A stretch of DNA of 11,767 nt, from NCBI GenBank assembly GCA_013696905.1, contig JACCXP010000138.1:1-11767 (forward strand), written 5' to 3'. Origin of the DNA: Thermoleophilaceae bacterium (GTDB taxonomy: Bacteria; Actinomycetota; Thermoleophilia; Solirubrobacterales; Thermoleophilaceae). Within the stretch, counting starts at the first letter, position 1. Every line of letters starts with the position of its first letter. Both the position numbers and the translations under genes were made by a program. This document shows positions 880 through 4,026 of this stretch, piece by piece. The notes below the pieces were generated by a model. It made no database searches and was not told where the DNA came from. It saw nothing but the letters and a program-made list of their open reading frames with translations.

Positions 880-1296
880 CTACGAAGGCGCCGGTCGCAC
901 AGCGATCGCTATACGCGTGGTCGCGCACAGCCGGCCCTCGTCGTCTGAGAAGTCGACGTCCCACATCCAGCTCGTGCGGCCGCGGTGGCGCCGGCGCGCG
1001 TCGGCGTGCACGGTCCCGCTCGTGATCGGGCGCAGGAAGCTCGTCTGGTTCGACGAGCCCATCGCGATCATCCCGTCGCGATGCACGGCCCTGAAGGTCG
1101 CGATCGAGGCGATCGACTCGGCCAGCGCGGCGTAGACGCCGCCGTGCACGAGCCCGAAGGGCTGGCGCACCCGGTCCTCGACGGCCACGCGCCCGCGGGC
1201 GTGCTCGTCGCCCACGTCGAGCAGCTCGAAGCCGAGCACGCCGTCGAGCGTGAGCCCGACGTCGAGCACGGTCGGGAGATCCTGCACGGCCTGCAT
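880..1296 (-). CDS. PaaI/YdiI-type hotdog-fold acyl-CoA thioesterase
   Basis: This 138-residue protein has the length and layout of single-domain hotdog thioesterases. The signature G-L-V-H51-G-G-V-Y-x3-A-E60-S matches the catalytic segment of YdiI/MenI (DHNA-CoA hydrolase) and PaaI relatives: the HGG loop, then a helix carrying the catalytic acid, here E60. A later S-F-L-R-P-I segment and a C-terminal W-x-V-D-F-x-D-x-x-G-R-L-C strand also fit. It probably hydrolyses aryl- or acyl-CoA in the cytoplasm; the substrate cannot be decided from sequence, and menaquinone biosynthesis is only one option. ATG 1296 directly abuts the TAG of apt, so it is the last gene of the operon and probably translationally coupled. 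Confidence 0.88.
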   Translation of the reverse strand: MQAVQDLPTVLDVGLTLDGVLGFELLDVGDEHARGRVAVEDRVRQPFGLVHGGVYAALAESIASIATFRAVHRDGMIAMGSSNQTSFLRPITSGTVHADARRRHRGRTSWMWDVDFSDDEGRLCATTRIAIAVRPAPS

Positions 1297-1845
1297 CTAC
1301 TCCGCGTCGTAGGTGACGAGCGAGTGCACGTCGTAGGGGCGCAGCCGAGCGCGGCCGTCGAGGAACCCAAGCTCGATCGCGAACGCGCAGCCGGCGACCT
1401 CGGCGCCTGCGCCCTCGACCAGGTCGCAGAGCGCCCTCGCCGTGCCGCCGGTCGCCAGCAGGTCGTCGTGGACGAGCACGCGCGCGCCGCCCGCGAGCGC
1501 GTCGCGGTGCATCTCGAGCGCGTCGACGCCGTATTCGAGCACGTACTCGACCGACGAGGTCTCCGCCGGCAGCTTGCCGGGCTTGCGCGCCGGGATGAAG
1601 CCGGCCCCGACGCGGGCCGCGACCGCCCCGCCCAGGATGAAGCCGCGCGCCTCGGCGGCGACGACGTAGTCGACCCGGCGCGCGGCGGCGTAGTCGGCGA
1701 TCAGCGCGACCGCATGTTCGAGCGCCGCCGGGTCGAGCAGCAGCGGCGTCACGTCCTTGAAGACGATCCCCGCCTGCGGGAAGTCGGGGATGTCACGGAT
1801 GAACGCGCGCAGGTCTACGCCGGCGCTCGCGGTGACGCGGCTCAA
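1297..1845 (-). CDS. apt: Adenine phosphoribosyltransferase
   Basis: This 182-residue type I phosphoribosyltransferase makes AMP from adenine and PRPP (purine salvage, cytoplasm). Supporting features are the N-terminal I-R-D-I-P-D-F-P-x-x-G-I-x-F-K-D-V-T-P segment at 17-34, typical of Apt; the A-x-E-A-R-G-F-I-L-G strand-loop at 63-72; the R-K-P-G-K-L-P loop at 87-93; and the PRPP-binding motif at 123-136 (hydrophobic strand, D127-D128, then A-T-G-G-T-A). Length is normal for the family. The start is TTG, overlapping the MerR stop codon as TTGA (1842-1845). No better in-frame start lies closer to the conserved region, so I keep TTG. The downstream thioesterase starts at the next base after its TAG. 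Confidence 0.95.
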   Translation of the reverse strand: MSRVTASAGVDLRAFIRDIPDFPQAGIVFKDVTPLLLDPAALEHAVALIADYAAARRVDYVVAAEARGFILGGAVAARVGAGFIPARKPGKLPAETSSVEYVLEYGVDALEMHRDALAGGARVLVHDDLLATGGTARALCDLVEGAGAEVAGCAFAIELGFLDGRARLRPYDVHSLVTYDAE

Positions 1846-2600
1846 CCCGTGATCCGGCGCAGGTCCCGCACCAGCAGCAGGTACTTGAGGTGCGAGGCGA
1901 TCGTCGCCAGGTTCTCGAGCGCCTCGACCGCCTCGCGCCGCCGCTCGGGATTGCGCGAGCGCAGCGACGGAGCGAGGATCTGCTCGAGCAACGCGGCCTC
2001 ACGGTCAGCGGAGGTGCGAAAGACGCGCAGGTTGCGCCCGTGAACCCCGAAGCGCGCGAGCTCGGTGACGGCGCGGATGATCTCGCGCTCGGTGTCGTCG
2101 TAGAACACCTCGCCGTCGCGCTGCTCGCCCTTGATGACGCCGAACTCCTCGAGCTCGCGAACGAGCGCGACCTCGGCGCCGGTCTCCTCGAGCACGTCGC
2201 CCAGCGAGTAGAGCGAGGCCTGCCCCTTGACGCTCACCGACGTGCGGCGCAGCGTGCGCGGCTCGGTCCCGTGGCCCTTGTCGTCCTCTGACTCGTCGCG
2301 ACCCTGCGCGAGCTCCTGGCGGATCACCCGCAGCGGCAGGAACTCGTCACGCTGGAGACGCAGGATCGTGCGCAGGCGCGCGACGTCGCGCGGCGAGTAG
2401 AGGCGGTAGCCGCCCTGCGTGCGCCGCGGGGCGAGCAGCTTCTGGTCCTCCAGGTAGCGGATCTTCGAGATCGATATGTCTGGGAACTCGCGCTCGAGCT
2501 GCTTGCAGACCGCGCCGATCGTGAGCGACTTCGCGACCGGCCCGTTCTGCGGCTGGACCGGAGCGACGCCATCCGCAACCATGTCGATCTCGGCGCTCAC
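1842..2600 (-). CDS. MerR-family regulator, FtsR/Rv1828-like
   Basis: This 252-residue protein has a MerR winged helix-turn-helix at about 26-97: T-I-G-A-V, then F-P-D-I-S-I-S-K-I-R-Y-L-E, a R-R-T-x-G-G-Y-R-L-Y wing and a L-x-x-Q-R-D-x-x-L-P-L-x-V-I-R helix. That unusual longer first helix (F-P-D before the recognition helix) is typical of Rv1828 of Mycobacterium and FtsR of Corynebacterium, where FtsR activates ftsZ. A linker rich in charged residues (about 98-120) leads to an all-helical C-terminal domain, thought to dimerise in Rv1828. No metal-binding Cys cluster is seen; C32 lies within the HTH. GTG 2600 overlaps the FHA gene stop as GTGA; an ATG at 2582 is an alternative. The garA-ftsR gene order matches mycobacteria and corynebacteria. 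The target promoter is not shown here. Confidence 0.9.
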   Translation of the reverse strand: MSAEIDMVADGVAPVQPQNGPVAKSLTIGAVCKQLEREFPDISISKIRYLEDQKLLAPRRTQGGYRLYSPRDVARLRTILRLQRDEFLPLRVIRQELAQGRDESEDDKGHGTEPRTLRRTSVSVKGQASLYSLGDVLEETGAEVALVRELEEFGVIKGEQRDGEVFYDDTEREIIRAVTELARFGVHGRNLRVFRTSADREAALLEQILAPSLRSRNPERRREAVEALENLATIASHLKYLLLVRDLRRITG

Positions 2601-3079: not shown

Positions 3080-3337
3080 CTACTGGCTCTCGCCGGGCGG
3101 CGCCGCCTTGCCCGACAGGATGTCCGTGAGCTGCTGCACGTCCGCGCCGGTGATCACGCTCTCGCCGTCCTCGTGCTTCTTGCGCAGCCGGTTGACGAGC
3201 TCCGCCCGCAGGATGTCGATCTTGCCGTGCAGGATGCGGCGGCGGTAGGACACCTCCTGCTCCTCCTCGGTGAGGTCGTTGATCAGATCCTTGAGCTCCT
3301 GGTCGCTGAGCGCGCCGAGGTCCGGAAACGTCTCCAT
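3080..3337 (-). CDS. rsiG: RsiG-like small protein (candidate c-di-GMP-dependent anti-sigma factor)
   Basis: This 85-residue, strongly helical, charged protein is the first gene of its operon. Residues 10-55 form one long helix pair rich in Glu, Arg and Leu. Within it, E26-x3-S30-x2-R33-x3-H37-x3-D41 matches the c-di-GMP signature of the Streptomyces anti-sigma RsiG (E-x3-S-x2-R-x3-Q-x3-D) at four of five positions, with His in place of Gln. Streptomyces RsiG has two copies, one per helix. Only one is seen here, as described for the homodimeric RsiG of Rubrobacter. RsiG with c-di-GMP holds the sporulation/motility-type sigma factor WhiG. No sigma gene is in the window, so the partner would be elsewhere. 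ATG 3337 is preceded by AAAGG at a good distance. The family call rests on the motif, size and helical make-up. Confidence 0.72.
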   Translation of the reverse strand: METFPDLGALSDQELKDLINDLTEEEQEVSYRRRILHGKIDILRAELVNRLRKKHEDGESVITGADVQQLTDILSGKAAPPGESQ

Positions 3338-3367
3338 ATCAGCCTTTGGTCGAGTTCTGAAACGGTC

Positions 3368-3373
3368 AGTATA
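3368..3373 (-). promoter_or_regulatory. -10 promoter element TATACT for the rsiG-FHA-merR-apt operon
   Basis: On the minus strand, TATACT lies about 30 nt before the ATG at 3337, in the only sizeable gap (77 nt) of the minus-strand gene run. It differs from TATAAT at one base in otherwise GC-rich DNA. No convincing TTGACA-like -35 box is seen at 16-18 nt. Two direct copies of AACCTC (plus-strand GAGGTT at 3375-3380 and 3387-3392) occupy the spacer/-35 region, so an activator may help. Confidence 0.5.
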
Positions 3374-3374
3374 C

Positions 3375-3392
3375 GAGGTTAAAGCGGAGGTT
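3375..3392. repeat. Direct GAGGTT repeat at the operon promoter
   Basis: GAGGTT occurs at 3375-3380 and again at 3387-3392, a 12-bp period, just upstream (in the minus-strand sense) of the TATACT element. Tandem half-sites about one helical turn apart near -35 suggest a regulator site. No protein can be assigned from the sequence. Confidence 0.35.
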
Positions 3393-3414
3393 GAGGGTCA
3401 GGCGCGAGGCTTCG

Positions 3415-4026
3415 TCAGCGCACCCCGTGCCGGCGGGCCTCGCGGATCGAGATCGCCGTCGCCACGTACGAGAGCACGAGCCCGATCACGAGCAGCGCAA
3501 ACGCGACGGGCGTGTCCGACAGCATCGACAGGAAGATCGAGAACATCGTCGGCCACACCGCCCAGCGCCCGACCATCGAGACCGAGATGTCGAGCCCGTG
3601 GTCGAGCGCGACCCGGCTGAGGATCAGCATCAGCAGCTCGCGCGCCACCAGCAGGCCGAGCGCCCAGCGCGGCAGCAACTCGAAGCGCCAGGCCACGAGC
3701 ACCCCCGAGACGACGAGCAGGCGGTCGACGAGCGGGTCAAGCAGCACGCCCAGGCGCGAGTACTGACCGGTGATGCGGGCGAGGATGCCGTCCAGGTAGT
3801 CGGTCGCGCCGATCACGGCGTAGGCGGCGGCGGCGGTGGTCGAGCGCCCGTCGCCCGAGGACATGCCGAGGTAGAGGAAGACCGGGATCAGCGCCAGCCG
3901 CGCGTAGCCGACGTAGTTCGGGATCGTCCACGGACGCAGCGGCTGGCCCCGCCGCGTCTCGAGCGGCGGCGGGCCCGAGCGGTCGAGCCCGAGCAGCCGC
4001 AGCTTCGTCAGTCGAGCCGGCGCCAT
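3415..4026 (-). CDS. CDP-alcohol phosphatidyltransferase (PgsA family)
   Basis: This 203-residue integral membrane enzyme has the full CDP-alcohol phosphotransferase motif: D76-x2-D79-G80-x2-A83-R84-x8-G93-x3-D97-x3-D101. These acids bind the metal ions and the CDP-diacylglycerol. The start of the catalytic domain, P-W-T-I-P-N-Y-V-G-Y-A-R (32-43), is typical of the PgsA/cardiolipin-synthase branch. Hydrophobic helices lie near 43-55, 63-77, 103-115, 122-138, 154-170 and 174-192. The acceptor alcohol (glycerol-3-phosphate, phosphatidylglycerol or inositol phosphate) cannot be fixed by sequence reading. I chose ATG 4026, which overlaps the proS end by 19 nt. The frame is open further upstream, but that extension only shadows proS. 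In mycobacteria a pgsA paralogue also lies near garA-ftsR, so the neighbourhood is partly conserved. Confidence 0.9.
   Translation of the reverse strand: MAPARLTKLRLLGLDRSGPPPLETRRGQPLRPWTIPNYVGYARLALIPVFLYLGMSSGDGRSTTAAAAYAVIGATDYLDGILARITGQYSRLGVLLDPLVDRLLVVSGVLVAWRFELLPRWALGLLVARELLMLILSRVALDHGLDISVSMVGRWAVWPTMFSIFLSMLSDTPVAFALLVIGLVLSYVATAISIREARRHGVR

Follow-up and report, generated by a model that had tools for sequence, protein, structure and literature searches.

The closest described systems are the single-motif anti-sigma factors of the RsiG family. Of the 135 RsiG homologs that have been reported (Schumacher et al., 2021, PMC8325347), five carry a single copy of the motif, published as E(X)3S(X)2R(X)3[Q/H](X)3D, namely those of Rubrobacter radiotolerans, R. 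xylanophilus, Thermoleophilum album, Patulibacter medicamentivorans and Conexibacter woesei, and the RsiGs of these five species co-purified with WhiG (PMC8325347). Single-motif RsiGs were found in Rubrobacteria and Thermoleophilia and twin-motif RsiGs elsewhere; the former work as homodimers, whereas the twin-motif RsiG of Streptomyces venezuelae works as a monomer (PMC8325347). In Rubrobacter, the RsiG-WhiG switch was connected with type IV pili and also with c-di-GMP enzymes (PMC8325347), and a paper of 2026 on RmdB concerns Streptomyces (PMC13232838).

The window, i.e., the whole stretch of 11,767 nucleotides analyzed here from contig JACCXP010000138.1 of a Thermoleophilaceae bacterium, carries a gene that is, as judged from its sequence, a single-motif RsiG and thus a further example of a solved and already described system. 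Less expected is its place beside garA and ftsR, which is shared across a wide range of related bacteria and is apparently unpublished.

The rsiG gene and its described relatives

The gene is an open reading frame on the minus strand with an ATG start and 85 codons before the stop (Table 1); the plus-strand reading of the same interval was rejected as it is not the gene. The sequence-only reading had described an 85-residue protein with the spacing E26-x3-S30-x2-R33-x3-H37-x3-D41, had taken it for the single-motif form of RsiG and had proposed a search against the RsiG family. All of this was borne out: the chain contains one motif copy (E26, S30, R33, H37 and D41, the codon for H37 being 3227-3229), the Pfam family PF22802 (RsiG) matched it with 76.5 bits, far over the cut-off of 27 (E 1.3e-21), and phmmer searches against the PDB returned, at E 5.9e-12, the Streptomyces chain 6pfj, which bears the name 'AmfC protein' in its entry, and, at E 8e-10 to 1.1e-9, the RsiG chains 7lq2, 7lq3 and 7lq4 of R. 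radiotolerans. No NCBIfam family was found for the protein at E <= 1.

Within the class Thermoleophilia the protein resembles the RsiGs of P. medicamentivorans and C. woesei in its one motif, its small size and its histidine at the variable motif position. The orthologue in P. medicamentivorans I11 (locus L134) is 74% identical to it, likewise has His at this position and shows the same order pgsA-rsiG-garA-ftsR-apt, the differences being the species, the remaining sequence divergence and the fact that no WhiG was found in the window's assembly. The gene at L134 is probably the P. medicamentivorans RsiG studied previously, because the species is the same and one RsiG per genome was reported (PMC8325347). 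The RsiG of R. radiotolerans (PDB 7lq2, 7lq3 and 7lq4) shares the single motif and aligns over residues 5-50, whereas it has Gln at the stacking position, where the window protein has His, and has a longer segment ahead of its motif helix (the 7lq4 chain has 118 residues). S. venezuelae RsiG (PDB 6pfj and 6pfv) belongs to the same family, its first helix aligning best and its second more weakly, but it has two motifs in one monomeric chain; with one motif only, the window protein falls outside this twin-motif, Streptomyces-type form.

Table 1. Position and assignment of the features of the rsiG locus in the window
Feature	Position	Strand	Basis
hotdog-fold thioesterase, next in the run after apt	880..1296	minus	TIGR00369, 85.7 bits (cut-off 36.6)
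apt, adenine phosphoribosyltransferase	1297..1845	minus	NCBIfam NF002636, 219.2 bits (cut-off 125)
ftsR, MerR-type regulator	1842..2600	minus	NCBIfam FtsR, 218.4 bits (cut-off 150)
garA/odhI-like, zinc ribbon + FHA, 155 aa	2597..3064	minus	PF00498, 71.5 bits (cut-off 20.7)
rsiG, predicted single-motif RsiG-type anti-sigma factor, 85 aa	3080..3337	minus	ORF; PF22802; PDB 7lq2/7lq3/7lq4, 6pfj
E-x3-S-x2-R-x3-H-x3-D motif, codons E26 to D41	3215..3262	minus	sequence; residue roles from PMC8325347
pgsA-like CDP-alcohol phosphatidyltransferase	3415..4026	minus	PF01066, 99.6 bits (cut-off 22); start codon by eye

WhiG, c-di-GMP and the candidate regulon

By analogy with the published proteins, the window gene is very probably an orthologue of the single-motif RsiGs, the c-di-GMP-loaded homodimer of which holds WhiG inactive. 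Following this, we propose that two RsiG chains would come together in an antiparallel coiled coil, that a c-di-GMP dimer would be clamped by their two E-S-R-H-D motifs, and that the loaded homodimer would bind flagellar-type WhiG and keep it from RNA polymerase; upon a drop in c-di-GMP, WhiG would be freed and the WhiG genes transcribed, its targets in this lineage being perhaps surface proteins, type IV pilin among them. Dimerisation, c-di-GMP binding, WhiG sequestration and the regulon are carried over from published relatives, and the computed part of this scheme comprises family membership, the motif, the gene order shared with P. medicamentivorans rsiG and the class-wide co-occurrence with WhiG. 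The ligand is probably made in the window's genome, because 12 GGDEF matches, all over cut-off, were detected there.

The co-occurrence was assessed in a draw of 299 genomes of the class, which differ in completeness and in which 'absent' can therefore mean 'not assembled'. RsiG was detected in 235 of them and a WhiG-type sigma factor (TIGR02479, E <= 1e-40) in 230, of which 227 were over cut-off; both were present in 221 genomes, RsiG only in 14, WhiG only in nine and neither in 55 (Fisher p 4e-37, n=299, related genomes not being independent). The window's genome is one of the 14 with RsiG only: its best TIGR02479 (FliA_WhiG) match stayed at 127.2 bits, below the cut-off of 189.6, and among its six strong matches, five of which were classified from the matched stretches only, two are SigB/F/G over cut-off and four match best with RpoD-type models. 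The absence of a WhiG/FliA-type sigma factor, which the sequence-only reading had named as a refutation of its RsiG proposal, thus formally holds for this assembly, but it is likely to be an assembly gap. All 13 other genomes of the family in the draw possess WhiG. In the single family WhiG that was tested (L159 of genome G284), the NCBIfam WhiG model scored 369 bits (cut-off 343), and K57, G61 and R62, the residues of Streptomyces WhiG that touch c-di-GMP (PMC8325347), are kept in the alignment. In the related genomes G226, G103 and G284, whiG is flanked by a phage-integrase/Xer-type gene on one side and an EF-G-type gene on the other, and an epimerase gene is found in the vicinity (typed by Pfam, one copy each). 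The best matches to these genes in the window's genome show only 28% (epimerase), 44% (phage-integrase/Xer-type) and 42% (EF-G-type) identity as compared to about 59 to 78% among relatives, and the true counterparts therefore seem to be missing as a block together with whiG, from which we infer the gap.

Alternatively, RsiG might be an orphan in this organism, WhiG (and type IV pilins) being truly lost and the protein acting instead, with c-di-GMP still as the ligand, on a SigB/F-type sigma factor, on the neighbouring GarA/FtsR or on some other partner. Besides the lack of both WhiG and a prepilin motif among the matches in this genome, the presence of two SigB/F/G sigma factors and the conserved linkage to garA-ftsR would fit this view, as would the 14 of 235 RsiG-containing class genomes without WhiG at E <= 1e-40, one of which is 96% complete (G041). 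We nevertheless regard such an orphan as unlikely, given that the assembly is 86.2% complete and split into 434 contigs, that the low identities of the whiG-flanking genes are those expected if the stretch was left unassembled, that every other family genome in the draw keeps WhiG, and that at most two (G041 and G194) of the 155 best-quality genomes with RsiG are without it.

Assuming that the preferred reading, control of WhiG by RsiG, applies, its regulon in the window's lineage is inferred from relatives. Exact FliA-type promoters were found five times in four of 15 family genomes (the window's own included), with no match in the other 11 and none for the reversed pattern. One of these sites (L211, G169:C177) lies ahead of a frame with the prepilin motif N_methyl (31.2 bits, cut-off 21.2). 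Two others precede collagen-like and secreted peptidase-like frames (assigned by eye) and two precede unnamed frames. The window's genome has no exact FliA-type promoter and no N_methyl prepilin motif at E <= 0.01; when up to 2 mismatches were allowed, 17 sites were obtained as compared to nine in the reversed control, none of the 17 being ahead of an evident pilin. One of these 17 sites (L176, G000:C134), with 2 mismatches, precedes a GGDEF-HD frame by 8 bases; genes of this kind are WhiG targets in Rubrobacter (PMC8325347), although the count in the reversed control makes chance a possible explanation.

The histidine in the motif

The sequence-only reading had seen in the His at the Gln position a special change that may alter ligand specificity or affinity, a view that was not supported. 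Among the 30 best-scoring RsiG loci of the class from the 299-genome search, the window's own included, 28 have His and two have Gln (L018 and L032), Gln being present also in the further class locus L220. The residues E-S-R-H-D were found in 80/80 named loci, which are the 80 top-ranking of 557 confirmed loci and hence close to the query, with a scan pattern that allowed H or Q, and 14 of 16 single-motif loci picked from 12 other families have His (Gln in L188 and L189); the class, named and chosen sets overlap in part. In the 11-sequence alignment of RsiG, E26, S30, R33 and D41 are invariant and column 37 lies outside the invariant or nearly invariant columns. This is in line with the published description, according to which the Gln of the first motif is often replaced by His and the same stacking contact is possible with His (PMC8325347). 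A rare substitution at position 37 was ruled out by these counts together with that description: His is the usual residue in the single-motif RsiGs examined and no change particular to the window gene. Moreover, the His-type protein is a described and working form, because the single-motif RsiG of C. woesei has His and binds c-di-GMP and also WhiG (PMC8325347).

It is therefore very improbable that the His-type protein is a specialised form whose ligand choice or affinity has changed. The motif residue stacks on guanine, where a change could matter, and the one measured His-type protein had roughly half the c-di-GMP affinity of the one measured Gln-type single-motif protein, with Kd values of 25 µM in C. 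woesei and 12 µM in R. radiotolerans (PMC8325347). However, His is the common state, and C. woesei RsiG binds c-di-GMP, about 15-fold tighter with WhiG, and does not bind c-di-AMP (PMC8325347).

The AlphaFold2 monomer model of the window protein, built with 11 sequences, consists of a long helix (residues 12-56) and a short helix (64-74) with a mean pLDDT of 81.7. A Foldseek search with this model gave no PDB match at E <= 0.001 and no RsiG among the 35 rows listed, which carries little weight because the model is a single helix. That the protein is an unrelated helical coiled coil with the motif by chance, as might be argued from this search and from the simple heptad patterns common to coiled coils, is ruled out for practical purposes by the PF22802 score, the invariant E, S, R and D residues and the gene order common to the window and P. 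medicamentivorans rsiG.

The garA-ftsR neighbourhood and twin-motif chains

In the window, the garA-like gene begins 15 bases past the rsiG stop codon, and at the junctions of garA with ftsR and of ftsR with apt the two genes share 4 bases. On the upstream side, in the same orientation, come the pgsA-like gene, 77 bases before the rsiG start, and then proS (named by eye). The GarA-like protein has an N-terminal zinc ribbon before its FHA domain (PF13240, 29.5 bits, cut-off 25). It scored 107.6 bits with the NCBIfam OdhI model, which is under the cut-off of 200. The earlier placement of rsiG at the head of a GarA-FtsR operon holds insofar as rsiG is the first gene of the close-packed run rsiG-garA-ftsR-apt, but a transcript start was not located: a scan of 3300-3480 for sigma-70 promoters and terminators found none.

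Conservation of the neighbours was followed by tblastn with the window proteins, strand and side being checked. All 126 single-motif loci have garA downstream on the same strand (30/30 class, 80/80 named and 16/16 chosen loci), and ftsR is downstream in 123 (27/30, 80/80 and 16/16), where again the sets overlap; a PgsA match upstream on the same strand was obtained for 77 of the 80 named loci. Three loci of genus g89 (L019, L027 and L029) gave no ftsR match between garA and apt, which are still close to each other there; in the fourth g89 locus (L022), ftsR is present. The distance between rsiG and garA exceeds 250 bases in eight of the 16 chosen loci and reaches about 1.2 kb, and the gapped loci that were examined have other small frames in this space. 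A conserved frame of about 85-115 residues with a pattern like EERV..YI.RE...GRK...IL.DPYV.N lies between the two genes in L191, L192, L194, L195, L197, L199, L200 and L205; three of these intervening frames were compared with Pfam and gave no family over cut-off. The window, with its 15-base gap, is without this frame of other lineages. In L195 and L200, the gap also contains a frame of about 256 residues that is polysaccharide deacetylase-like by eye (TFDDGPS). At L093 (CAMCUD010000013.1), in a record under the title of a Bifidobacterium breve MAG, an rsiG locus was found with 83% identity to the window protein; this title looks wrong. No match to garA or ftsR was obtained within 6.5-7 kb at any of three twin-motif loci of other lineages (L201-L203).

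The odhI/garA-ftsR pair together with two downstream genes was described as conserved in Actinobacteria, the region upstream of odhI being variable (PMC6683498). RsiG is not mentioned in the conservation passages of that paper, the words 'GarA', 'FtsR', 'synteny' and 'FHA' do not occur in the main text of PMC8325347, and literature searches returned no statement of rsiG linkage to garA-ftsR, the titles listed for RsiG with GarA being off subject. The conserved place by garA and ftsR suggests that the dose of RsiG may be co-ordinated with central metabolism and division. As for the earlier idea that c-di-GMP is linked in this way to cell-cycle genes, the gene order on which it is based proved to be conserved, and gene order is its sole basis.

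Within the class, twin-motif chains were encountered at the same locus. Two or more RsiG matches were present in 27 genomes of the class draw; when these were searched again, the second match was mostly elsewhere in the genome, and in ten genomes it shared an open frame with the first match at the garA locus. These ten comprise 3/3 genomes of g29 (family f4), which belongs to the same order as the window's organism, 5/5 of g45 (family f7) and 2/2 of family f10, counted over listed genomes, RsiG-negative ones not all being listed. The loci are L214, L217 and L218 (g29), L219 and L221-L224 (g45), and L229 and L230 (f10). At these loci garA follows in 10/10 and ftsR in 9/10, the available stretch of L224 ending early; all ten genomes have WhiG, and both motifs fit E-S-R-[QH]-D except for the second motif of L224, which ends in Glu.

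Over 47 residues, the halves of the g29 chains are most like single-motif RsiGs from their own order (70-83% identity). In g45, the N-terminal halves have their best matches among family f7 RsiGs (64-77%) and the C-terminal halves, at 53-68%, mostly among f7 rows. In a tree of 47 columns, the C-terminal halves of g29 group with one single-motif row from that order (support 96/87). The f7 group (98/93) takes in every g45 half and, on a long branch, also the N-terminal halves of f10, the C-terminal halves of which group with those of the Streptomyces type. The alignment is limited to these 47 columns and some branches are long; a single clade was not rejected by the AU test, either for the full set of 13 C-terminal halves (p 0.117) or for the eight of g29 and g45 (p 0.079). 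Because of the best-match identities and the tree placement of the halves, we favour a minimum of two fusions in addition to that of Streptomyces, the twin-motif chains of the class apparently being products of separate in-frame duplications.

Taken together, it is an evenly balanced possibility that RsiG would have begun as a fixed member of an ancient garA-ftsR module, in which c-di-GMP control of WhiG would be combined in a single unit with GarA, the 2-oxoglutarate switch, and FtsR, the division regulator, and that the step from a homodimer to a fused twin-motif chain would have been taken repeatedly at this locus, separately in g29 and in g45 and perhaps in f10, besides the Streptomyces line. 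The deep garA-ftsR linkage and the apparent repeated fusions at the rsiG locus are what deserves follow-up. If an anti-sigma gene under c-di-GMP is coupled to garA and ftsR across many families, this would offer a testable link between c-di-GMP, nitrogen-carbon metabolism and division in early-branching actinobacteria. If the fusions were indeed repeated, the published single evolutionary path would become a repeated one, open to direct comparison, and the advantage of the twin-motif chain could be measured in independent cases.
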